The notes beneath the pieces were generated by a model. It had not been told where the DNA came from. It saw only the letters and a list, made by a program, of their open reading frames with translations, and made no database searches. A DNA stretch of 64,000 nt. Origin: Burkholderiales bacterium. GTDB taxonomy: Bacteria > Pseudomonadota > Gammaproteobacteria > Burkholderiales > JABEVD01. Positions 26,718 through 35,100 of this stretch are shown one piece after another. Within the stretch, counting starts at the first letter, position 1. Every line of letters starts with the position of its first letter. Position numbers and translations under genes: made by a program. The stretch spans positions 1 to 64,000 of the forward strand of contig JAIELG010000028.1 of NCBI GenBank assembly GCA_019753155.1, given 5' to 3'.

Positions 26718-27422
26718 TCAGGACCAGTTTCGACGCCTGACGATAAATCCGATCAACGCGAAGCCTGCCAGCATCAGCGCCCATTCGCCGGGCTCCGGCA
26801 CAGGGGCCATCATCGAAACATTGCCCGGAAGCTCGACCCACGAATAGCTTCCGCCGGAACTGCCGTCCTCGCCCTGATTGCCACCAGACACAGACATGCT
26901 GCCGACATCAAAAGAAGTGGGCGCATACTCCGAACCAGCCCAGTACCCGCCGTGCTCGACATTTCTGAACAGACTGTAGCTGGAATTGTGGGTCTCGGTG
27001 ATGGATTGCCCCGCCTTGCCGCCCAACTCGGTATAGAAAAACTCTTCCTGCTGGCCGACCGTCGGCAATGCCCATGTGTTGTGGCCAAGATAATCGGTGC
27101 TGTCCAGATACTTCACCCAAGCCGTCGCACCGAACAAGCTCATGGCGCCGGGAGTATCCGAACCGATGCCAAAGTCGGCCTCGTTCAGTCTGTGGACTTC
27201 GCCATTGGAGGTATCGACAGGCGCCGCCTCGATGATCTTGCTCACTAGCGAAGGATCCTCGGTCAGCATGGTGCCGAAAAGATTGCCGTCCGAACTCCAG
27301 GTGACATTCGCAACGCTGTCATACACCAGGCCGTTGCCGAGCGAGTCCAAGCTCGCATGAGCAATATTCGCGTTCAAGAAAACCGCCGCAAGCAATATCG
27401 CAGCTTTGAACTGATGGTTCAC
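26718..27422 (-). CDS. PEP-CTERM sorting-domain exported protein
   Basis: The protein has a signal peptide (NHQFKAAILLAAVF... ending in AHA), a DUF1566/Lcl-like middle part (GLVYDSVANVTWSSDGN, then WALPTVGQQEEFFY and GGYWAGSEY), and a classic sorting tag VPEPGEWALMLAGFALIGF followed by RRR. The tag is cut by an exosortase (XrtA-type). No exosortase gene lies in the window. The GTG start at 27422 has a strong ribosome site (GAGGGGG); an in-frame ATG at 27464 also has an upstream AGGGG and is a real alternative. It probably ends up in the cell surface or extracellular matrix. Confidence 0.85.
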   Translation of the reverse strand: MNHQFKAAILLAAVFLNANIAHASLDSLGNGLVYDSVANVTWSSDGNLFGTMLTEDPSLVSKIIEAAPVDTSNGEVHRLNEADFGIGSDTPGAMSLFGATAWVKYLDSTDYLGHNTWALPTVGQQEEFFYTELGGKAGQSITETHNSSYSLFRNVEHGGYWAGSEYAPTSFDVGSMSVSGGNQGEDGSSGGSYSWVELPGNVSMMAPVPEPGEWALMLAGFALIGFIVRRRNWS

Positions 27423-27499
27423 CTGTTCCCCCTCGAAGAAGTTTTCCGATTCATATCGAATCATCCGATCCCCTTATCGCCGGGGAGTGCAGCACTATT

Positions 27500-27515
27500 A
27501 GCATGAACCATGCCA
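27500..27515 (-). promoter_or_regulatory. Probable sigma-54 promoter of the PEP-CTERM gene
   Basis: On the minus strand the sequence reads TGGCATGGTTCATGCT. It keeps GG and GC ten bases apart, close to the TGGCAC-N5-TTGCW consensus. It ends about 35 bases before the upper start codon. PEP-CTERM genes are often sigma-54 dependent through the PrsK/PrsR pair, which supports the call. Confidence 0.55.
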
Positions 27516-27681
27516 CAACATTTTGAATTGGATCAAACGCATGTTATTTCAATATGTTGCCATGCGTTACAGAATGTTGCAGAAGTTCTGCGCAAAAGAC
27601 GCAACAGTAACTGTGTATTTTATTGACACTTTTTTCTGCCCCGCCGCGCCTCACCGACCGTCGCGACCACGCGGAACTTGT

Positions 27682-28866
27682 TCAGGGGTTCCTGAAACGC
27701 CGATCGAGCTGCGTCAAAGGGTAACTTTTAATGTAGAGGTCATATGCCGATTGCAGGGAATGATCCAGGGCCGCGCGGATGAGACTCATCCCCTTCCCGT
27801 CAGGCTGCGCATCCAGCAGTGACCGGTACAGCCCCGTATAAAAATGGTCTGGCTCCACATGCACCCGCATGACGACAGCGCCGGCATCCGGGTTGAGCGG
27901 CGCCAGGTATTCCAGAACCGCCTGCGCCCCAGGCGCGAGCCGCGTATCGGACAATTCCTCATCCAGATCGGCTGACACCTGTCTGGCGATGATCTTTTCC
28001 TGCAAGGTTCCAAAAATCGCCTTGTTGTCCTCGGATACCTGATAGATCTGCATGCTCACCCTGGGGGTGACATAAGTTGGGAAATAATGCCCCGTACCGC
28101 TGTTTGTCATGGCAAGCCGTGCGTGCAAGCGCCCACTTTGCGCAACAGGCGTGTTTACCGTAACTGTCACGCCTTTTCGAGACATCTCCACATCATGAAT
28201 TCCGCGCCATAAATGTTGCCGCTCGGGCATGTGACAATTCTGGCATTGCGTGCCCGCATAAGGGGAGGCTTGCCACTCCGCGTAAGTGTTTTCCAGGGGT
28301 TTGCCGTTCAGCACATAGCCATCTTTCCCGAATTGATGGCAGGTTGCGCAGAAACGCCCATCCTCGAATGCGGGAGAGCTGACGAATCCGCCATGAGATT
28401 TGCCGGGCTGCAACCCGATCGGCGGCGGGCCGTAATGCACATGGCGCCGCACATGGCACGCCGCGCAAACCAGCCCCTGTTCATGCAAATCACTCGCTAC
28501 CCCGCGCAAGGCTTTCCTCAGGCTCGCTTCCTGCTCGGCGAGCGGAGCATGGCATCTCGTGCAGGCACGCAATTCACCGACCGCATTCGGCTTGATCGAG
28601 AGCAGTTGCCCCATCACTCCGGGCCCCATTGCATGTGAGTGCAAACTATTGCGCCAACCATCATACTGCCTGGGATGACAGGCGCCGCATGAATCCGGAC
28701 TCAATTCGGTTTCGAGTGCGGTATAGGATTTTGGCGCTTTTCCCTGTGACTGGATCGGGAACGCCCAGTGGCGCTTCAGAAAAGCTTTTGTCGCATCCTG
28801 CGCGCCGGCTGGCAAGGCCGCCAGCATGAAAAAGACCGCAAGAATCCGCCTCGAACGTTCGTTCAT
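27682..28866 (-). CDS. Periplasmic five-haem c-type cytochrome
   Basis: The 394-residue protein has a Sec signal peptide (ILAVFFMLAALPAGA) and five CxxCH haem motifs: CGACH, CTRCH, CAACH, CATCH and CQNCH, spread over residues about 60-215. The last 180 residues lack haem sites and look beta-rich (TVTVNTPVAQSGRLHARLAMTN, YFPTYVTPRVSM), resembling cytochrome c554-family proteins. It starts immediately after the doxX stop with no spacer, which ties it to the buf operon. Its electron partner is unknown. A five-haem cytochrome at the end of a bufferin operon is unusual. Confidence 0.85.
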   Translation of the reverse strand: MNERSRRILAVFFMLAALPAGAQDATKAFLKRHWAFPIQSQGKAPKSYTALETELSPDSCGACHPRQYDGWRNSLHSHAMGPGVMGQLLSIKPNAVGELRACTRCHAPLAEQEASLRKALRGVASDLHEQGLVCAACHVRRHVHYGPPPIGLQPGKSHGGFVSSPAFEDGRFCATCHQFGKDGYVLNGKPLENTYAEWQASPYAGTQCQNCHMPERQHLWRGIHDVEMSRKGVTVTVNTPVAQSGRLHARLAMTNSGTGHYFPTYVTPRVSMQIYQVSEDNKAIFGTLQEKIIARQVSADLDEELSDTRLAPGAQAVLEYLAPLNPDAGAVVMRVHVEPDHFYTGLYRSLLDAQPDGKGMSLIRAALDHSLQSAYDLYIKSYPLTQLDRRFRNP

Positions 28867-29319
28867 TTATTTCGAAGCCAGTCGCTTCTCCAGCCAGGCG
28901 TCCGCCGACCACTTGCCGCGGCTGAGCACCAACAACACGCCCAGCAGTATGCCCCAGGACAGATGCTGATTGATGCCGGCAGGACTCAGGTCGGCATAGG
29001 ATATGACCGCCACCACGTTGAGAATGGAGAGGCCGGCGGCGGCAAAGCGCCCGAAAAAGCCCAGCACCAGAAGCACGGAAAGGCCAAGCTCGGCACTCGC
29101 AGCCATCGTTGCCGCCACTTCAGGCGGCAACAGCGGCACATGGTAAACATCGCTGAAGAGATAAAGCGTGCTGTCCCAGCTTTGCACCTTGGTCAATCCT
29201 GACTTGAAAAATACGTTCGCCAGATACAGGCGCAAGCCCAGGTCGAATACAGGCGCCAGGCATTCCGGAAAACGCGAGGCGGTATAATAAAGTCTTGCAA
29301 TTCGTGACAGAATATTCAT
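28867..29319 (-). CDS. DoxX family membrane protein
   Basis: The 150-residue protein has four hydrophobic helices and the DoxX pattern, including RLYLANVFFKSGLTKVQSW and a GFFGRFAAAGLSILNVVA segment. DoxX proteins are linked to redox and sulfur metabolism and often close bufferin operons. It lies 10 bases after the bufC stop. Its exact role in such operons is not settled; a quinone-linked step has been suggested for the family. Confidence 0.85.
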   Translation of the reverse strand: MNILSRIARLYYTASRFPECLAPVFDLGLRLYLANVFFKSGLTKVQSWDSTLYLFSDVYHVPLLPPEVAATMAASAELGLSVLLVLGFFGRFAAAGLSILNVVAVISYADLSPAGINQHLSWGILLGVLLVLSRGKWSADAWLEKRLASK

Positions 29320-29329
29320 AAGGCGTCTT

Positions 29330-30058
29330 TCAAGCAGTCAGTACAGGCAACAGGTTCAGCAGGGCGGCCTGCAAATCAAAGTTCGGATAGCACTCCAGCG
29401 TGGAAAAAGTCGCAACGCCCAATGGGATTCCGGCTCGTATCGAGTGCAGCCAGAGGGCATCGGCTTCCTGCAACGCTCTGACCCGAACCTCATCCTCTTC
29501 GCGGCTTACCAGCGCGATGGTCGGACCATCATCGAGATTTATCCGAAAATCGGCCGGCATTCCGGGTTGATGGGCATGCCAGATGGCCGTTATCGGATAC
29601 CGGGATTTCACGATCCCGCATGACGGATGAACCGGCAGGCGCAGGGACTCGTATTGTTCCGGAACCACCTGTGCAAGCCTTGCCAGATCGAGCGGGTCCG
29701 CATCCTGCGCATAGTAGGCAAGGTGGCATGCCCATTCCAGCCTCGCGACATCCGCAAGATAAGGCAGTCCGGGTTCTAAAGCGCAGATGAAGTCCCCGAA
29801 GGCTGCGCCATAGCGATGCAGGTTGCCGCTATGCGACGGGTGATTTTCGATGAATTTTTTCGCCATCATCGCAAAAAAATTTTGCCCGACGATTTTTTGG
29901 ATCACTGGATAGGCAATGGCAAGCGCACCTCGCAGGTTGCCGCGATAATTGTTGCGGTAGACGCCGACGGCGCTTTCTGCGGAATAGTTCGGGCAGATGA
30001 CCTGATTGTCCGGCAACAGTCCTTCGCCGCGGATGGCGCGAGCAAAATTCTCAAGCAT
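29330..30058 (-). CDS. bufC: BufC/HvfC-type DUF2063 protein, partner of the MNIO enzyme
   Basis: The 242-residue protein has the DUF2063 N-terminus (FARAIRGEGLLPDN, VGVYRNNYRGNLRGALAIAYPVIQKIVG) and a C-terminal domain with YPNFDLQAALLNLL. These proteins act as recognition partners that bring the precursor peptide to the DUF692 oxidase. The start was set at the ATG overlapping the bufB stop by 8 bases, since homologues begin near LENFARAI. It is the third gene of the bufferin operon. Confidence 0.87.
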   Translation of the reverse strand: MLENFARAIRGEGLLPDNQVICPNYSAESAVGVYRNNYRGNLRGALAIAYPVIQKIVGQNFFAMMAKKFIENHPSHSGNLHRYGAAFGDFICALEPGLPYLADVARLEWACHLAYYAQDADPLDLARLAQVVPEQYESLRLPVHPSCGIVKSRYPITAIWHAHQPGMPADFRINLDDGPTIALVSREEDEVRVRALQEADALWLHSIRAGIPLGVATFSTLECYPNFDLQAALLNLLPVLTA

Positions 30059-30878
30059 GCCTGTCCTCCACATACTGTCGCGCCCGAGCCGCCTCGTCCA
30101 GCAAAACCCCCAGTTCCGGGATGTCGTTGTCCCATTCGATCAATGTTGGGCGCGGCCCGATATGTTGCAGCGCAAATTCATATAATGCCCAGACCTCGGC
30201 GCAAACGCGGGAACTGTGGGTGTCCACCAGCATGCCGTCCGCAATGCTGTGACCGGCAAGGTGATATTCCAGTACCGCATCGACCGGCAGCGTCCGGATA
30301 TACGCCTTCGCATCCACCCCGAGGTTGCGCGCATTCACGTACAGGTTGTTGACATCGAAAAGGATGACGCAGCCTGTGCGCCGGGACAGTTCGGCGAGAA
30401 ACTCGCCTTCGCTCATTTCGCTGCGGGCGAAAAAAAGATAGCTGGACAGGTTCTCCAGCAGCAATCGACGGCCCAGCTTTTCCTGCACCTCTTCCACGCG
30501 AATCGCCACATGGGACAAAAATGCCTGGGTATAGGGAAATGGCAGCAGGTCGTTGATGACCGCGCCCCCGGCGGCATTCCAGCAAAGATGTTCGGATACT
30601 GCGGCAGGCTGCACCGCATCGACGAGGTTTCGCAACGACGACAAATGTTCCTCATCGAGTGGATCGGTGGAAGCGAGCCCCATCCCGACCCCATGCAGGC
30701 TGACCGGATAGTTCTCGCGCACCTTGAGCAAGGTATGGAGCGGCGCGCCGCCATCGAAGAAATTCTCGCTATGCACTTCGACCCAGCCCAAATCCGGATT
30801 GTCCCGCAATACCTCGCGGTAGTGAGGCGCCCGCAACCCTATGCCGGCGGTGCATGGCAGGGCAGCGGGCATCTCCAT
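30051..30878 (-). CDS. bufB: BufB, DUF692 multinuclear iron oxidase (MNIO) modifying bufferin cysteines
   Basis: The 275-residue TIM-barrel protein of the DUF692/MbnB/TglH family has GIGLRAPHYREVL, EVHSENFF, SLHGVGMGLAS, SEHLCW, LLLENLSSYL, FDVNNLYVNA, YHLAGH and LIEWDNDIP. The histidine and acidic residues are those that bind the iron cluster. In bufferin operons it oxidises core-peptide cysteines to thiooxazole-type groups that bind copper. The ATG overlaps the bufA stop by one base; a second in-frame ATG lies 6 bases on. Confidence 0.9.
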   Translation of the reverse strand: MEMPAALPCTAGIGLRAPHYREVLRDNPDLGWVEVHSENFFDGGAPLHTLLKVRENYPVSLHGVGMGLASTDPLDEEHLSSLRNLVDAVQPAAVSEHLCWNAAGGAVINDLLPFPYTQAFLSHVAIRVEEVQEKLGRRLLLENLSSYLFFARSEMSEGEFLAELSRRTGCVILFDVNNLYVNARNLGVDAKAYIRTLPVDAVLEYHLAGHSIADGMLVDTHSSRVCAEVWALYEFALQHIGPRPTLIEWDNDIPELGVLLDEAARARQYVEDRHA

Positions 30879-31141
30879 CACATTTCTTTCAGAGCGCCAT
30901 GAGCGATCTTCTCGCAAGTGCCTTTGGGCACGGCGACAAAATCCATCGGATCGTTGTCGCGGGTGGCCTGTCCGGCACAGGAGTGAGCACTCTTGTTGCT
31001 GGAGCAATCATTCTTTCCTGCCTTGGCGATGCCCCAGCATTTTTCCATGTTCATCTTGTCTGCTGCGTTTGCATTGCCGCTGACCAGACCCAGTGCCAGC
31101 AAACCGCCGATCGCGGCGGATAGAATATGACGGTTATCCAT
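30878..31141 (-). CDS. bufA: Bufferin precursor peptide (DUF2282)
   Basis: The 87-residue peptide has a Sec signal peptide (residues 1-26, ending ANA) and four conserved cysteines in [19 protein letters not shown] and KGTCEKI, the DUF2282 pattern. Bufferins are exported ribosomal peptides that chelate copper in the periplasm after BufB modifies their cysteines. A clear ribosome site (AAAGGAG) lies 7 bases before the ATG. A weak hairpin lies upstream between it and the Asn-Pro-Cys peptide gene, which allows either a shared or a separate transcript. Confidence 0.9.
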
Positions 31142-31169
31142 GGTAAAACTCCTTTATCGAATTGGAAAA

Positions 31170-31190
31170 GGGGGCCGATGCCGGCTCCCC
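31170..31190 (-). terminator. Hairpin with short T-run between the NPC-peptide gene and bufA
   Basis: On the minus strand GGGGAGCCG and CGGCCCCC can pair around GCAT with one bulge, followed by TTTT. It sits just after the NPC-peptide stop, so it may act as a leaky terminator giving more of the first peptide than of the buf genes. Confidence 0.45.
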
Positions 31191-31197
31191 GGATTCA

Positions 31198-31416
31198 TTA
31201 CATCTTGCCGGCGCAAGGATTCTTTGCAGCGCAGGGATTGGCTTCCTTCTTGTGATGCGATTTCTTGTGATGCGTCTCGCCGCAAGGATTCTTTGCAGCG
31301 CAGGGGTTGGCCTTCATTGCGCAGGGGTTCTTTGCAGCGCAAGGATTGCCGTCCGCATAGGCGGAAGATGCAGCCACCATTGCTACGACAGCCAGAATTT
31401 TCTTAAATGACTTCAT
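31198..31416 (-). CDS. Small secreted peptide with repeated Asn-Pro-Cys motifs, possible metal binder
   Basis: The 72-residue protein has a Sec signal peptide (MKSFKKILAVVAMVAASSAYA). The mature part of about 51 residues has six Cys, all in NPC motifs (NPCAAKNPCA, ANPCAAKNPCG, ANPCAAKNPCAG), split by a His/Lys block GETHHKKSHHKKE. Such Cys and His density suggests metal or thiol chemistry. It has a strong ribosome site (AGAGGAG) and lies 56 bases upstream of bufA in the same direction, so the MNIO enzyme BufB could modify it too. I know no characterised function for it; it could be a second precursor peptide. Confidence 0.82.
   Translation of the reverse strand: MKSFKKILAVVAMVAASSAYADGNPCAAKNPCAMKANPCAAKNPCGETHHKKSHHKKEANPCAAKNPCAGKM
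31213..31345. repeat. Internal DNA repeats coding the NPCAAKNPCA units
   Basis: A unit of about 24 bases beginning GCAAGGATTCTTTGCAGCGC on the + strand occurs at 31213 and 31282, with a diverged copy from 31321. The repeats are in frame with the peptide gene and encode its AAKNPCA units. They point to recent unit duplication; they are not a CRISPR array. Confidence 0.85.
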
Positions 31417-31467
31417 TTTGATTCTCCTCTATTGATAAAAACTGGTCTAATGACCACCGAACAAGCC

Positions 31468-31495
31468 TGCATGGTTGCCGGAAGGCAACCGTGCA
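31468..31495. other. Perfect-looking hairpin upstream of the NPC-peptide gene
   Basis: TGCATGGTTGCC and GGCAACCGTGCA form a 12-pair stem with one G-U/mismatch position and a GGAA loop. It lies in the leader of the NPC-peptide gene, downstream of the small Cys-rich genes. No T-run follows on either strand, so an RNA stability or regulatory element is more likely than a terminator. Confidence 0.5.
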
Positions 31496-31510
31496 TGCAA
31501 ATTTTCTCCA

Positions 31511-31624
31511 TCAATCCCGATGGCTATTTGCGGGTTTGAATGTTCGCTGCATCTCGGCAGTATAAGCCGTCAGCGCAGCCAAATCCCGCGACTCCCATGG
31601 CAATGGCTTGGAAGCCATCGGCAT
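31511..31624 (-). pseudogene. Possible remnant of a c-type cytochrome C-terminus
   Basis: A 37-codon frame reads MPMASKPLPWESRDLAALTA then YTAEMQRTFKPANSHRD. The MPM and the helix ending LAALTAYTAEMQ resemble the distal-Met and C-terminal helix region of class I c-type cytochromes. There is no haem motif and no good ribosome site, so it may be the leftover 3' end of a lost cytochrome gene, or chance coding. Confidence 0.3.
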
Positions 31625-31669
31625 CAATAAACAGAGATGATTGCGGCTATTTTTTTCATGGCACCCAGT

Positions 31670-31792
31670 TTACTTGAGCCACCAAACGACAGCGGCCACC
31701 ATGAAAATTACCATCATTCCCGCCATCATTTTTTCGTGGATGCACATGCCTTGTTGCTGTTTGCATCCCTTCATCGGGCACATCAGTGACAT
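31670..31792 (-). CDS. Tiny Cys-rich single-helix membrane protein A (40 residues)
   Basis: It reads MSLMCPMKGCKQQQGMCIHE, then KMMAGMMVIFMVAAVVWWLK. Three cysteines and a His lie before a single C-terminal hydrophobic helix, so it is probably an inner-membrane peptide with a metal- or thiol-reactive head. A very strong ribosome site (AAGGAGATGAA) directly precedes the ATG, which supports real translation. It follows tiny protein B by 31 bases on the same strand. No function is known to me. Confidence 0.7.
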   Translation of the reverse strand: MSLMCPMKGCKQQQGMCIHEKMMAGMMVIFMVAAVVWWLK

Positions 31793-31823
31793 TTCATCTC
31801 CTTATCCATTGAAATATTACGGG

Positions 31824-31958
31824 TTATTTGCCTATGAAGAGCGCGGCAGCGCCGACAATAACAGCCAATGCGACGAAAACCATCAGCAGCATCGCGGCCC
31901 CGTGGCCGCCGCAGCTTCCACACTTTTCACCTTCTTCCGTAGCGCATGTCCGGGACAT
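31824..31958 (-). CDS. Tiny Cys-rich single-helix membrane protein B (44 residues)
   Basis: It reads MSRTCATEEGEKCGSCGGHG, then AAMLLMVFVALAVIVGAAAL and FIGK. Cys5, Cys13 and Cys16 with His19 make an N-terminal head, followed by one membrane helix. The ribosome site is AGGAG six bases before the ATG. It is the first gene on the minus strand, divergent from the ECF sigma gene. The shared plan with tiny protein A suggests both belong to one response. No homologue is known to me. Confidence 0.7.
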   Translation of the reverse strand: MSRTCATEEGEKCGSCGGHGAAMLLMVFVALAVIVGAAALFIGK

Positions 31959-32007
31959 TTCGTTCTCCTGTTAAATTGAGTGAAGGAAAAATGTTGCTTC
32001 CTGAGCA

Positions 32008-32036
32008 TTAGTCGCGCCGGATTAAAATTCCTTACA
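32008..32036 (-). promoter_or_regulatory. Possible ECF-type promoter of the small-protein/bufferin unit
   Basis: On the minus strand TGTAAGG and CGACTAA are 15 bases apart, about 50 bases before the first small gene. The TGTAA-type -35 and CG-containing -10 resemble ECF sigma promoters. The divergent ECF sigma gene makes this attractive, but no second copy was found before bufA. Confidence 0.35.
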
Positions 32037-32065
32037 CCTGTCCGGAAAATTGTTATGCTTTACGC

Positions 32066-32662
32066 ATGAAGAATGCACCTCACGATCCGGACAATCTTGA
32101 TGCCCGACTGGTTTCATTGCGTGGCGATATGCTCAAGTTCGCCAGGCTTCAGTTGCGCGATGATGCCGCAGCGGAAGACGCCGTTCAGGAAAGCCTGGCG
32201 GCAGCGCTATCCGGACAGAAACAATTCAACAATCGCGCCCAGATCAAAACCTGGGTGTTCGGCATACTCAAGAACAAAATCATCGACATCATCCGCGAGC
32301 GCGTTCGCTCACCGAATTCGGCCGTCGAGGAAATCCCGGAGAATGCCTATGACGACCTGTTCAACGAGAACGGTTTCTGGCGGGAAGATACGCACCCATC
32401 CAGTTGGGGGGATCCTGAAAAAAGCTTCACCAGCCGGCAATTCTGGGAAATTTTCGAAATCTGCCTCACCCGTCTGCCGGAAAATACCGCCAGAATCTTC
32501 ATGATGCGGGAGATGCTCGGTTTCGAAACCGAAGAAATCTGTAAGGAATTGTCGGTCAGCCCGACTAATTGTTGGGTGGTGCTGCACAGGGCAAGGATGG
32601 GATTGAGGCTTTGCCTCGAAGAACGGTGGTTTAATTCGGAGAACCGACATGCTGAATTGTAG
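32066..32662 (+). CDS. ECF-family RNA polymerase sigma factor
   Basis: The 198-residue protein has region 2 (RLQLRDDAAAEDAVQESLAAAL, FNNRAQIKTWVFGILKNKIIDIIRER) and region 4 (LTRLPENTARIFMMREMLGFETEEICKELSVS, then VVLHRARMGLRLCLEE). A zinc-finger anti-sigma gene overlaps its 3' end, the usual ECF pairing. The upstream ribosome site is weak. It is divergent from the small Cys-rich genes and heads a + strand unit of thiol-redox genes, so it probably answers metal or thiol stress in the envelope. Confidence 0.9.
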   Translation: MKNAPHDPDNLDARLVSLRGDMLKFARLQLRDDAAAEDAVQESLAAALSGQKQFNNRAQIKTWVFGILKNKIIDIIRERVRSPNSAVEEIPENAYDDLFNENGFWREDTHPSSWGDPEKSFTSRQFWEIFEICLTRLPENTARIFMMREMLGFETEEICKELSVSPTNCWVVLHRARMGLRLCLEERWFNSENRHAEL

Positions 32663-32828
32663 GAAGGCGGCGGAATTGATGTCGCAGGGATTGGACAGGA
32701 AACTCGGCACGCTGCAAAGAATAGGATTGCGCCTGCACCTGCTGATGTGCAGTGGTTGCAGAAACTTCGACAAACAGATGAATTTCCTGCGCGATAGCTG
32801 CCGCAAATTTCCGCAGCAGGACAGCTAG
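32649..32828 (+). CDS. Small zinc-finger anti-sigma factor
   Basis: The 59-residue protein reads MLNCRKAAELMSQGLDRKLG at the start and has LRLHLLMCSGCRNF, giving the Cys...His-x3-Cys-x2-Cys zinc-finger pattern of zf-HC2 anti-sigma factors. It has no membrane helix, so it would act as a soluble ZAS-type sensor, possibly redox or metal responsive. It overlaps the sigma gene by 14 bases. Confidence 0.8.
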   Translation: MLNCRKAAELMSQGLDRKLGTLQRIGLRLHLLMCSGCRNFDKQMNFLRDSCRKFPQQDS

Positions 32829-32839
32829 CCCCGCATCCA

Positions 32840-33055
32840 ATGAAGAGCATCCTACTCGAATCCGAGCTGACTTGCCCGCATTGCGGATTCGCCAAGTTGG
32901 AAACCATGCCGACTGATTCATGCCTGTTCTATTACGAATGCAGCAACTGCAAAAAGTTGTTGAGGCCCAAGCCCGGCGACTGTTGCGTTTTCTGCTCTTA
33001 CGGCTCGGTCAAATGCCCACCCATACAGGCCCGGTGTTGCGACAGGCCGGGTTAA
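32840..33055 (+). CDS. GDCCVxC-domain putative zinc-binding protein
   Basis: The 71-residue protein has CPHCG, CSNCKKLLRPKPGDCCVFCSYGSVKCPPIQ and a late CC, ten cysteines in all. GDCCVFCSYG is the family signature. Members are often found near mercury or copper resistance genes, but the molecular role is not known. It lies 11 bases after the anti-sigma stop in the same operon. Confidence 0.88.
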   Translation: MKSILLESELTCPHCGFAKLETMPTDSCLFYYECSNCKKLLRPKPGDCCVFCSYGSVKCPPIQARCCDRPG

Positions 33056-33075
33056 TTGACAATCACGGAGATATC

Positions 33076-33456
33076 ATGTTCAAGTTCATCCGGAATTTTT
33101 TTCTTCTATTCATTCTCACCGTCCCATCCGCATTCGCGGTGGGCGATGCATTCGACCAAACCCGGTTCAATCAACTGCTCAGGGAGGGCAAACCTGTCCT
33201 GGTCAGCATTCATGCCGACTGGTGCGCTACTTGCCGGGCTCAGGAAGCTTTCCTCAAAGACCTGCTGAAAACGCCGCCCTACAACACCCTTCAGGTGCTG
33301 CGAGTCGACTTCGACAAGCAGAAAGAAGTCGTGCGCGCTTTCAGGGCAAGATGGCAAAGCACGCTGATCGTGTTCAAGAATGGCAAGGAAATTGATCGCT
33401 CGACCGCCGATACCGACAAGGACAGCGTCGCTCTCATGCTGCGCAAGGCCTTGTGA
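33076..33456 (+). CDS. Periplasmic thioredoxin-family protein
   Basis: The 126-residue protein has a signal peptide (FIRNFFLLFILTVPSAFA) and a thioredoxin fold with the active site WCATC near residue 50 and a later LIVFKNGKEI strand. The cis-Pro position reads STLIV rather than xPT, a point of variation for this fold. The stop overlaps the ATG of ccdA, which should supply it with electrons. Together they form a short electron route across the inner membrane. Confidence 0.87.
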   Translation: MFKFIRNFFLLFILTVPSAFAVGDAFDQTRFNQLLREGKPVLVSIHADWCATCRAQEAFLKDLLKTPPYNTLQVLRVDFDKQKEVVRAFRARWQSTLIVFKNGKEIDRSTADTDKDSVALMLRKAL

Positions 33457-34190
33457 TGGCGGCAGGACTGGGGGTTGCCACATATGGGCTGTCCTTCGCG
33501 GCGGGCGGCCTGTCCACCCTGTCTCCATGTGTGTTGCCGTTGATCCCCATTTTGTTGGGCAGTACCGTATCTGAAAGCAAATTGGCGCCCATGGCATTGG
33601 GCTCCGGATTGGCGCTTTCTTTCGCCGTTACGGGCACGGCTTTGGCGAGCCTGGGGCAGCTATTCGATTTCGATCCTGCCATATTGCATGTTGTCTCCGC
33701 CGCATTACTGGCGGCATTTGGCCTGATGCTGCTGTCCGCCCGTCTGCAGCGACGTTTTGCATCGGCAACCACCGGGGTCGGAAATGCGGGCAATGCTCTG
33801 GCGGCAAGCCTTAATCCCGAGGGACTGCGCGGACAGTTCATGCTTGGCCTCCTGCTGGGTGTCGCATGGAGTCCCTGCGTCGGCCCAACCTTGGGCGTGG
33901 CGATTGGTCTTGCCAGCCAAGGGAAGCAAATTGCCCAGGTTGCGCTCATCATGTTACTGTTCGGCCTGGGGGCCAGTTTACCCATCATAGGATTGGGCAT
34001 GCTCTCGCGCCAGGGCATGCAAAAATTCCGGGGCAAACTGCTGCTGCTCGGCGGAAAGGGAAAACAACTGCTGGGCGCGTTCATGCTGGCGCTTGGCGCA
34101 ATGATGCTGACCGGCACGGACAAACTCGTCGAGGCCGGATTGCTCGGCGTGACTCCGGAATGGCTGCTCCGGCTGACAACCATGATATAG
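33456..34190 (+). CDS. ccdA: CcdA/DsbD-beta-like thiol-disulfide transmembrane transporter
   Basis: The 244-residue protein has about six membrane helices and the two redox cysteines in LSPCVLPLIPILLG and AWSPCVGPTLGVA, as in CcdA. It carries reducing power from cytoplasmic thioredoxin to periplasmic partners, here most likely the thioredoxin encoded just upstream. A GTG three bases before the chosen ATG is an alternative start. Confidence 0.88.
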   Translation: MAAGLGVATYGLSFAAGGLSTLSPCVLPLIPILLGSTVSESKLAPMALGSGLALSFAVTGTALASLGQLFDFDPAILHVVSAALLAAFGLMLLSARLQRRFASATTGVGNAGNALAASLNPEGLRGQFMLGLLLGVAWSPCVGPTLGVAIGLASQGKQIAQVALIMLLFGLGASLPIIGLGMLSRQGMQKFRGKLLLLGGKGKQLLGAFMLALGAMMLTGTDKLVEAGLLGVTPEWLLRLTTMI

Positions 34191-34236
34191 CCGTGCCTTG
34201 ATGGCTGCGCTATCGAAGCGATGTGGGAAACAACCA

Positions 34237-35100
34237 ATGAATGAACTCGAACATCTCCTGAACAGCCTTTTCATCATGGCCACCATGGTGGAAGCGCGCG
34301 ACCCTTACACAGGCGGACACCTGTGGCGCGTATCCCAATATTGCCGTGTTCTGGCCGGGCGCGGCGGATTGCCTCCCAGCCAGGTGGCACGCATTTCTCT
34401 GGGGGGATTTCTGCATGACCTGGGCAAGATCGCCGTGCCGGATGCCATACTCAACAAACCGGACCGGCTGACCGATGGCGAATACGAAATCATCAAGACC
34501 CACCCGGAAGTCGGACGCCGTTTGCTGACAGACCATCCGCTTGCGGAACTGGCCGAATCGGCAGTGTTCGCCCACCATGAACGCCCCGACGGCACGGGCT
34601 ACCCGCTGCGTTTGCCGCACGAGCGGATTTCCACCGATGCGCGCATCGTCGGCATTTGCGACGCATTCGACGCCATGACCAGCACCCGGCCCTACCGCAA
34701 GGGCATGCCGGCACAAAAAGCGCTGGACATCATCAAAGACAATCTCGGCACTCAATTCGATTCCGAATGGGGTTTGCTTTTTCTGGAACTGGGCGCAGCG
34801 GGCAAACTCGATCATATCGCAGGTCACAGCGAACCTGGCATTCCCATGCATGACTGCCCAATGTGCAGCGCCCCCATGGTCGTCAGACGCAGTCAGCGCG
34901 AAGGGGATCATGCCTATTGCCGGGGCTGCGGGGCTGAAACCGAGATTCGCCTGACCGACGGAAATGCGGTCATCGAAGCAACAGGGAGAAGGGGGACGCC
35001 CGCCCAACTGGAACCCGAGGTCGACGTAGACCTTGTCCGGGAACTGGTCAAGGAATCGGCCACGCTCCTCGCGGAATTCAGCCTGCGCAGCAGGGCTTGA
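34237..35100 (+). CDS. HD-GYP domain c-di-GMP phosphodiesterase with C-terminal zinc ribbon
   Basis: The 287-residue protein has an HD-GYP domain: ARDPYTGGHLWRVSQY, HDLGKIAVPD, HHERPDGTGYP and DAFDAMTSTRPYRKGM, with all metal-binding residues present. A zinc ribbon follows (CPMC...CRGCG), then a helical end. It should hydrolyse c-di-GMP to GMP. There is no receiver domain. I chose ATG 34237 because it has a GGGAAA lead; an in-frame ATG lies at 34201. It is the last gene before a strong terminator. Confidence 0.88.
   Translation: MNELEHLLNSLFIMATMVEARDPYTGGHLWRVSQYCRVLAGRGGLPPSQVARISLGGFLHDLGKIAVPDAILNKPDRLTDGEYEIIKTHPEVGRRLLTDHPLAELAESAVFAHHERPDGTGYPLRLPHERISTDARIVGICDAFDAMTSTRPYRKGMPAQKALDIIKDNLGTQFDSEWGLLFLELGAAGKLDHIAGHSEPGIPMHDCPMCSAPMVVRRSQREGDHAYCRGCGAETEIRLTDGNAVIEATGRRGTPAQLEPEVDVDLVRELVKESATLLAEFSLRSRA

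Follow-up and report, generated by a model that had tools for sequence, protein, structure and literature searches.

The window analysed here, a stretch of 64,000 nucleotides from a Burkholderiales bacterium (GenBank assembly GCA_019753155.1, contig JAIELG010000028.1), contains a short gene whose 72-residue product, MKSFKKILAVVAMVAASSAYADGNPCAAKNPCAMKANPCAAKNPCGETHHKKSHHKKEANPCAAKNPCAGKM, carries six cysteines, every one of them within an Asn-Pro-Cys (NPC) unit, with an HHKKSHHKKE block at its centre. An earlier note on this DNA had singled out the six NPC cysteines and the central His/Lys block, a signal peptide, a ribosome site and a gap of 56 bases to bufA on the same strand. The translated reading frame confirms the cysteine pattern and the block, and the remaining features are likewise present: the N-terminus is signal-peptide-like (MKSFKK, a hydrophobic core, then AYA), GAGGAG lies immediately 5' of the ATG and bufA starts at 31141. 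The position given for the gene also holds; its strand, which had been left unnamed, is the minus strand for the peptide and the buf operon alike. Throughout, genes were called as simple open reading frames and signal peptides from hydropathy.

The peptide gene and its surroundings

The features of the locus, in order of position, are the following.

27682..28866, minus strand: pentahaem c-type cytochrome with five CxxCH motifs, cytochrome c554-like (PF13435 and PF14522 over cut-off)
28867..29319, minus strand: DoxX-family membrane protein of the bufferin operon (PF07681, E 2e-18)
29330..30073, minus strand: bufC-like partner protein, DUF2063 (PF09836, E 8e-23)
30051..30881, minus strand: bufB, MNIO bufferin maturase (PF05114, E 3e-103; NF050167, 368 bits against a cut-off of 310)
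30878..31141, minus strand: bufA, DUF2282 bufferin precursor (PF10048, E 2.2e-25)
31142..31197, minus strand: 56-base spacer between peptide and bufA, with a hairpin GGGGAGCCG-GCAU-CGGCCCCC followed by UUUU
31198..31416, minus strand: NPC-repeat exported peptide, 72 residues, six cysteines (reading frame 31416..31198)
31670..31792, minus strand: small open reading frame with cysteine and one transmembrane stretch, upstream of the peptide (reading-frame list)
31824..31958, minus strand: small open reading frame with cysteine and one transmembrane stretch, upstream of the peptide (reading-frame list)
32066..32662, plus strand: ECF sigma factor TIGR02943, divergent (NCBIfam)
32649..32828, plus strand: zinc-finger anti-sigma factor (NF052368, 77 bits against a cut-off of 50)
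32840..33055, plus strand: GDCCVxC small protein (NF041374, E 1e-30)
33077..33456, plus strand: exported thioredoxin-like protein, with a homologue beside NPC genes in six other genomes
33453..34190, plus strand: CcdA/DsbD-like membrane protein, with homologues of 44-55% identity beside NPC genes in six other genomes

Downstream of the peptide, the minus strand thus reads bufA, bufB, DUF2063, DoxX and pentahaem cytochrome, the 5' end of bufB overlapping the 3' end of bufA. We considered an intrinsic terminator between peptide and bufA and set it aside: the spacer hairpin is present, G+C-rich and worth about -16 kcal/mol, but its z of -1.35 is not above chance, and a partial terminator at this point is possible. 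On the other side of the gene, the leader holds a terminator-like hairpin at 31443-31456 (minus strand) followed by GTTTTTATC, just before the ribosome site; the leader as a whole folds more favourably than its shuffles (z -2.45), and perhaps acts in attenuation. An Rfam search of 27000-35000 returned no match.

Several of the flanking genes recur at other loci with NPC repeats. The small reading frame at 31670..31792 has a homologue just before an NPC-repeat cytochrome in Sideroxydans (L054:5559-5678); its neighbour at 31824..31958 has no relative among the fetched NPC loci. Two other genomes have GDCCVxC proteins close to NPC genes. The divergent sigma-factor block also encodes an HD-GYP-type protein; this assignment, like those of the thioredoxin and the CcdA-like protein, is one we presume from sequence and family knowledge. 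The genome of the window (G000) carries a second, divergent MNIO gene elsewhere (G000:C2:2204-2884, locus L002; 465-codon open frame, 143 bits).

The peptide itself belongs to no family in the Pfam and NCBIfam libraries. DUF2282 does not match it in Pfam, bufA alone doing so, and no SoxY match is reported there. GPR15L, the PtrA N-terminus and Asr came up in these libraries as weak matches of signal peptide or composition, all below cut-off, and were rejected as identities. Repeats of the EGKCG 5-mer type are absent from its sequence.

A family of NPC-repeat proteins

When genome contigs were searched for the DNA pattern that encodes NPCAAKNPC, at least 119 stretches came up; the reversed pattern gave none in 55 genomes, and the repeat is therefore not a product of chance. 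Alpha-, Beta- and Gammaproteobacteria, Rokubacteria, Nitrospinota and others are represented among the matches listed. Plasmid and viral collections gave no matches, and a literature search by the letters of the repeat found no text on an NPCAAK-type repeat. NPC-repeat peptides form a widespread and apparently undescribed family of exported Cys-repeat peptides. The family was seeded with one exact motif, and the 50 genomes picked for their long contigs include related ones that are not independent of each other.

Two main kinds of protein carry the repeat. One is a short exported peptide, some 65-115 residues long; the other is larger, with NPC tails flanking a haem domain. The haem domain is a monohaem cytochrome c of SoxA/TsdA-like type (PF21342) or else, in alphaproteobacteria, cytochrome P460-like. 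Proline precedes 569 of the 623 counted cysteines in 63 NPC peptides. Other arrangements were seen alongside: the alphaproteobacterial P460-like domain fused to NPC repeats ends in CxxCH (L116:4724-6163, likewise L029, L042, L104 and L106), two cyanobacterial lipoprotein-like products fuse NPCAGKNPCASK repeats to a thioredoxin domain (L103:2137-2784, L139:2643-3266), and a TPR protein of Nitrospinota (L112:337-927) is flanked by units of the NPCGAK/HPCGMK type.

Judged by its sequence, the window peptide has the traits of the family, with Sec export and several NPC units, mostly NPCAAK. Its nearest BLAST relatives include peptides directly before a pentahaem cytochrome (L018, L203) or near one (L038), and its His/Lys block resembles those of Gallionellaceae peptides encoded directly upstream of DUF6969 (L178, L179, L252).

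The flanks of the NPC loci were inspected in 52 genomes, out to about 9 kb either way, the window excluded. DUF6969 was found in 38 of them, the NPC-tailed SoxA/TsdA-like cytochrome in 33, the sulphur transporter Sulf_transp in 22, a cupredoxin-like protein in 19, DUF302 in 18, a pentahaem cytochrome in 14, DUF3179 in 12, an ECF sigma homologue in seven, CcdA and thioredoxin in six each and MNIO in five. The make-up of this set varies between loci, and its commonest annotated members are related to sulphur rather than to copper export.

The NPC cytochrome carries PF21342 and a single haem, and its closest folds in the PDB are TsdA and SoxA. A cysteine about 40 residues after the haem motif (Cys142) is invariant, and the NPC tails are predicted to be disordered (pLDDT <50). 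TsdA and SoxA use a Cys-ligated haem to form a cysteinyl-thiosulfonate, which is passed to a carrier cysteine or a second thiosulfate (PMC6879331), and DUF302 also occurs inside sox clusters (PMC5037610). Since the closest folds are those of SoxA and TsdA, the cysteine is invariant and Sulf_transp and DUF302 are neighbours, we prefer, as a guess, a role for NPC peptides as sulphur carriers or thiol buffers in the periplasm, where CcdA and thioredoxin could keep their thiols reduced. The cargo is read from the neighbours, and metal buffering is the alternative.

The window departs from the common arrangement. The peptide there has neither DUF6969 nor the NPC cytochrome nor the sulphur transporter next to it, the genome encodes no NPC cytochrome at all, leaving the peptide as its only NPC gene, and its one PF21342 protein is without NPC units. 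What the window does have is the pentahaem cytochrome typical of a subset of the family, whose homologues (36-52% identity) often lie directly after the peptide elsewhere (L018, L019, L024). Neither this cytochrome nor the peptide was found in eight congeners, so that the two must have arrived or survived together; the pair is kept in the window with bufABC-doxX in between.

DUF6969 beside Cys-repeat peptides

The most regular neighbour of NPC genes is DUF6969 (PF22308). Within the order sample, DUF6969 scoring above 270 bits is present in seven of the nine NPC genomes, an eighth being cut by a contig end, and in none of the 390 others (p 1e-13). The window genome, which is 99.7% complete, has no match to PF22308 and is the only NPC genome of the order sample without any DUF6969; the partner was therefore invisible to the earlier note. 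In around a quarter of the sampled NPC genomes no DUF6969 lies closer than about 9 kb to the NPC gene, a figure that refers to the neighbourhood, and some of these genomes encode it elsewhere, away from the NPC gene (G187).

The association also holds in the reverse direction. All 17 fetched DUF6969 genes of other types in the order adjoin an exported Cys-repeat peptide. These lower-scoring genes lie nearly all in genomes without NPCAAK repeats, and the units beside them include NPCGPKK, NPCGPSNPCGPK, KCAPKCAPK, CGAKCGAK and PCVKTKAGGLA. Across the phylum, where DUF6969 occurs in 19 of 398 sampled genomes (about 5%), a Cys-repeat neighbour lies within about 3 kb of 17 of 20 DUF6969 genes; two genes are without one (L273, L277) and one sits at a contig end, and four genomes are common to the phylum-wide and order samples. 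An automated search for a Cys-repeat exported reading frame up to 2 kb upstream was positive for 49 of 72 DUF6969 genes, compared with 10 of 732 other genes. The first figure is a lower bound, since long NPC cytochromes escaped the detector, as did genes on the other side; the control rises to 67 of 732 when NPC reading frames are counted, which is the stricter figure because the control genes were drawn from NPC neighbourhoods. Three DUF6969 genes (L265, L266, L267) stand beside peptides that are Lys-poor and Ala/Glu-rich (CCAAEGCCAAEGCE, CAACAAGCAACAAGC) rather than Lys-rich, suggesting a different cargo.

Among 25 DUF6969 members, 35 residues are invariant, many of them His or Glu, including E49, H52, D57, D60, H70, H72, E78, H81, H83 and H115, and the alignment has no visible export signal. 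In an AlphaFold2 model (pLDDT 93.8, pTM 0.91), H70/H72, H81/H83 and H115 fall on successive strands with the paired histidines alternating, an arrangement whose strand positions suggest a metal site. A ferritin-like di-iron helix bundle was considered and rejected, as the model puts most invariant His and Glu on a beta sheet. A PDB fold search with the model found no match (best E 0.44), nor did a PDB search by sequence, and no paper under the name DUF6969 was found in the literature searched.

DUF6969 may thus be a dedicated partner of the NPC family, perhaps a maturase. Its regular pairing with exported Cys-repeat peptides whose sequences are otherwise unrelated makes action on the precursor its likeliest role; conserved, apparently cytoplasmic and with a His-rich core, it has the look of an enzyme that modifies peptides or of an escort dedicated to them. 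What ties it to the peptides is gene association rather than activity, and it is from associations of this kind that we infer precursor modification and cargo. More tentatively, and with a confidence that stays short of even, we propose that DUF6969 is a new-fold enzyme family that modifies cysteines of exported repeat peptides (NPCAAK, KCAPK, CGAK and others), which would define a widespread class of modified thiol peptides serving periplasmic sulphur or metal independently of MNIO and bufferins. If true, DUF6969 becomes a candidate peptide-modifying enzyme of unknown fold, many overlooked Cys-repeat peptides gain a context, and the maturation of exported Cys-rich peptides by means other than MNIO becomes a testable question.

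Competing explanations and known systems

The explanation we lean towards, by a degree that barely passes the even mark, is that of an NPC family with DUF6969 as its dedicated partner before export, a thiol cargo in the periplasm and an orphan copy in the window. DUF6969 would have its effect on the precursor, prior to export, either maturing it or accompanying it as an obligatory escort. The exported peptides would then carry or buffer a cargo held on their thiols, for example sulfane sulphur, thiosulfate adducts or a thiophilic metal, and would work with the pentahaem cytochrome, thioredoxin/CcdA and the SoxA/TsdA-like cytochrome c that bears NPC tails. The reading that best suits the window copy is that of an orphan family member that has stayed with the pentahaem cytochrome, the ECF sigma factor and CcdA/thioredoxin; the copy would survive between the ECF-sigma/CcdA block and the cytochrome, with bufABC-doxX intervening, and may now be a plain thiol peptide or be served by other enzymes. 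Because the genome keeps the peptide without DUF6969, either this partner is dispensable or the peptide is a relict. The window thereby offers a natural experiment, a family member without DUF6969 in front of a bufferin operon.

From this position in front of the operon the earlier note had suggested that BufB might act on the peptide too, which would make it a new class of metal-binding RiPP, and had asked whether NPCAAKNPC peptides lie near MNIO genes. Beyond the window, where the two adjoin, 5 of 50 other genomes have an MNIO gene no more than 10 kb away from an NPC gene, compared with 0.15-0.29 expected; chance clustering was accordingly rejected, although related genomes share part of the weak excess. 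The outcome that the note would have taken as refutation, homologues showing no preference for MNIO genes, therefore does not cleanly arise. A general link does not follow, and MNIO was discarded as the family's general partner: 29 of the 50 NPC genomes have no MNIO gene anywhere, and the order, in which 196 of 399 sampled genomes carry MNIO, shows no enrichment among NPC genomes (5/9 vs 191/390, p 0.75). Gene order and orientation at the NPC loci near MNIO are not conserved, bufABC-doxX being convergent with the NPC cytochrome in Gallionella (L156). The note's idea of a new class is supported in that the exported Cys-repeat peptides look like one, with no family in Pfam or NCBIfam and no description found by the letters of the repeat; the general rule of MNIO modification is not supported. 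Action of BufB and BufC from the adjacent operon on the NPC cysteines as well as on BufA is possible but disfavoured, and we rate it as improbable. It would fit the shared strand and short distance to bufA, a genome without DUF6969 and the tandem precursor genes that MNIO clusters can hold (PMC12452194), as well as the excess of nearby MNIO operons and a locus where both peptide systems stand side by side, a bufA-MNIO-DUF2063 operon being followed about 1 kb on by a CGAKCGAK peptide and DUF6969 (L233:5328-9191). Beyond the MNIO counts, the residue before each cysteine argues against it: this is proline for every cysteine of the window peptide and for none of 100 in 25 BufA homologues, and the captophorin MNIO FonBC (EGKCG-type), albeit of another MNIO subfamily, tolerates proline at no core position (PMC13097082). 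The peptide's lack of a DUF2282 match points the same way.

A stronger rival, which we nonetheless think unlikely, holds that NPC peptides are unmodified thiol buffers resembling metallothioneins, for Cu or Zn for example, with DUF6969 as a metallochaperone, stability factor or regulator and the clustering with bufferins as a sign of shared metal stress. Cysteines spaced six residues apart in a Lys-rich, predicted disordered chain (as in the low-pLDDT tails of the cytochrome), the nearby ECF sigma and anti-sigma factors, the co-location with bufferin operons and the persistence of the peptide without DUF6969 in the window genome are all consistent with it. It sits less well with DUF6969 being more constant than any other partner and conserved in a manner that looks like an active or metal site, and with commonest neighbours that are sulphur-related. 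We regard it as highly improbable that NPC proteins serve as a structural material of the cell envelope, cross-linked by disulphides: the Clostridioides difficile exosporium protein CdeC has six NPC repeats and self-assembles (PMC7677010), but it comes from a different phylum and location, and such a role agrees poorly with peptides this small and with their constant redox neighbours (cytochromes and thioredoxin/CcdA).

The system of peptide and DUF6969 that we favour, of which the window gene is one atypical member, has no described counterpart that we found; it shares traits with several known ones. CdeC has a His cluster besides its six NPC repeats, and we know of no link between it and DUF6969 or cytochromes. 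As a spore exosporium protein of another phylum, it is likely to resemble NPC peptides by convergence.

Bufferins (Buf1/DUF2282 and Buf2, with BufB and BufC) are closer, being short Sec-exported Cys peptides with an adjoining partner gene and stress-type sigma factors nearby, and a bufferin operon adjoins the window peptide. Sec signals are unusual among modified peptides. NPC peptides differ from bufferins in lacking DUF2282, in the proline before each cysteine of the window peptide and in a partner, DUF6969, that matches MNIO neither in sequence nor in fold, most sampled NPC genomes having no MNIO. The EGKCG captophorins or oxazolins (fontiphorin, HvfA) share with NPC peptides tandem short repeats of one Cys and one Lys each, export and a widely variable number of cysteines. 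They differ in the unit, which is NPCAAK in NPC peptides and places before the cysteine the proline that FonBC does not tolerate, and in the link to MNIO, which is not general for NPC peptides.

With the SoxAX/SoxYZ and TsdA systems, the NPC cytochrome shares the SoxA/TsdA domain PF21342 and an invariant cysteine downstream of the haem motif, and the likeness extends to the Sulf_transp, DUF302 and CcdA/thioredoxin genes near NPC loci. Unlike those systems, the NPC cytochrome has a single haem and NPC tails, and the window genome is without it. By analogy, the multi-cysteine NPC tails could fill a carrier role like that of SoxY.
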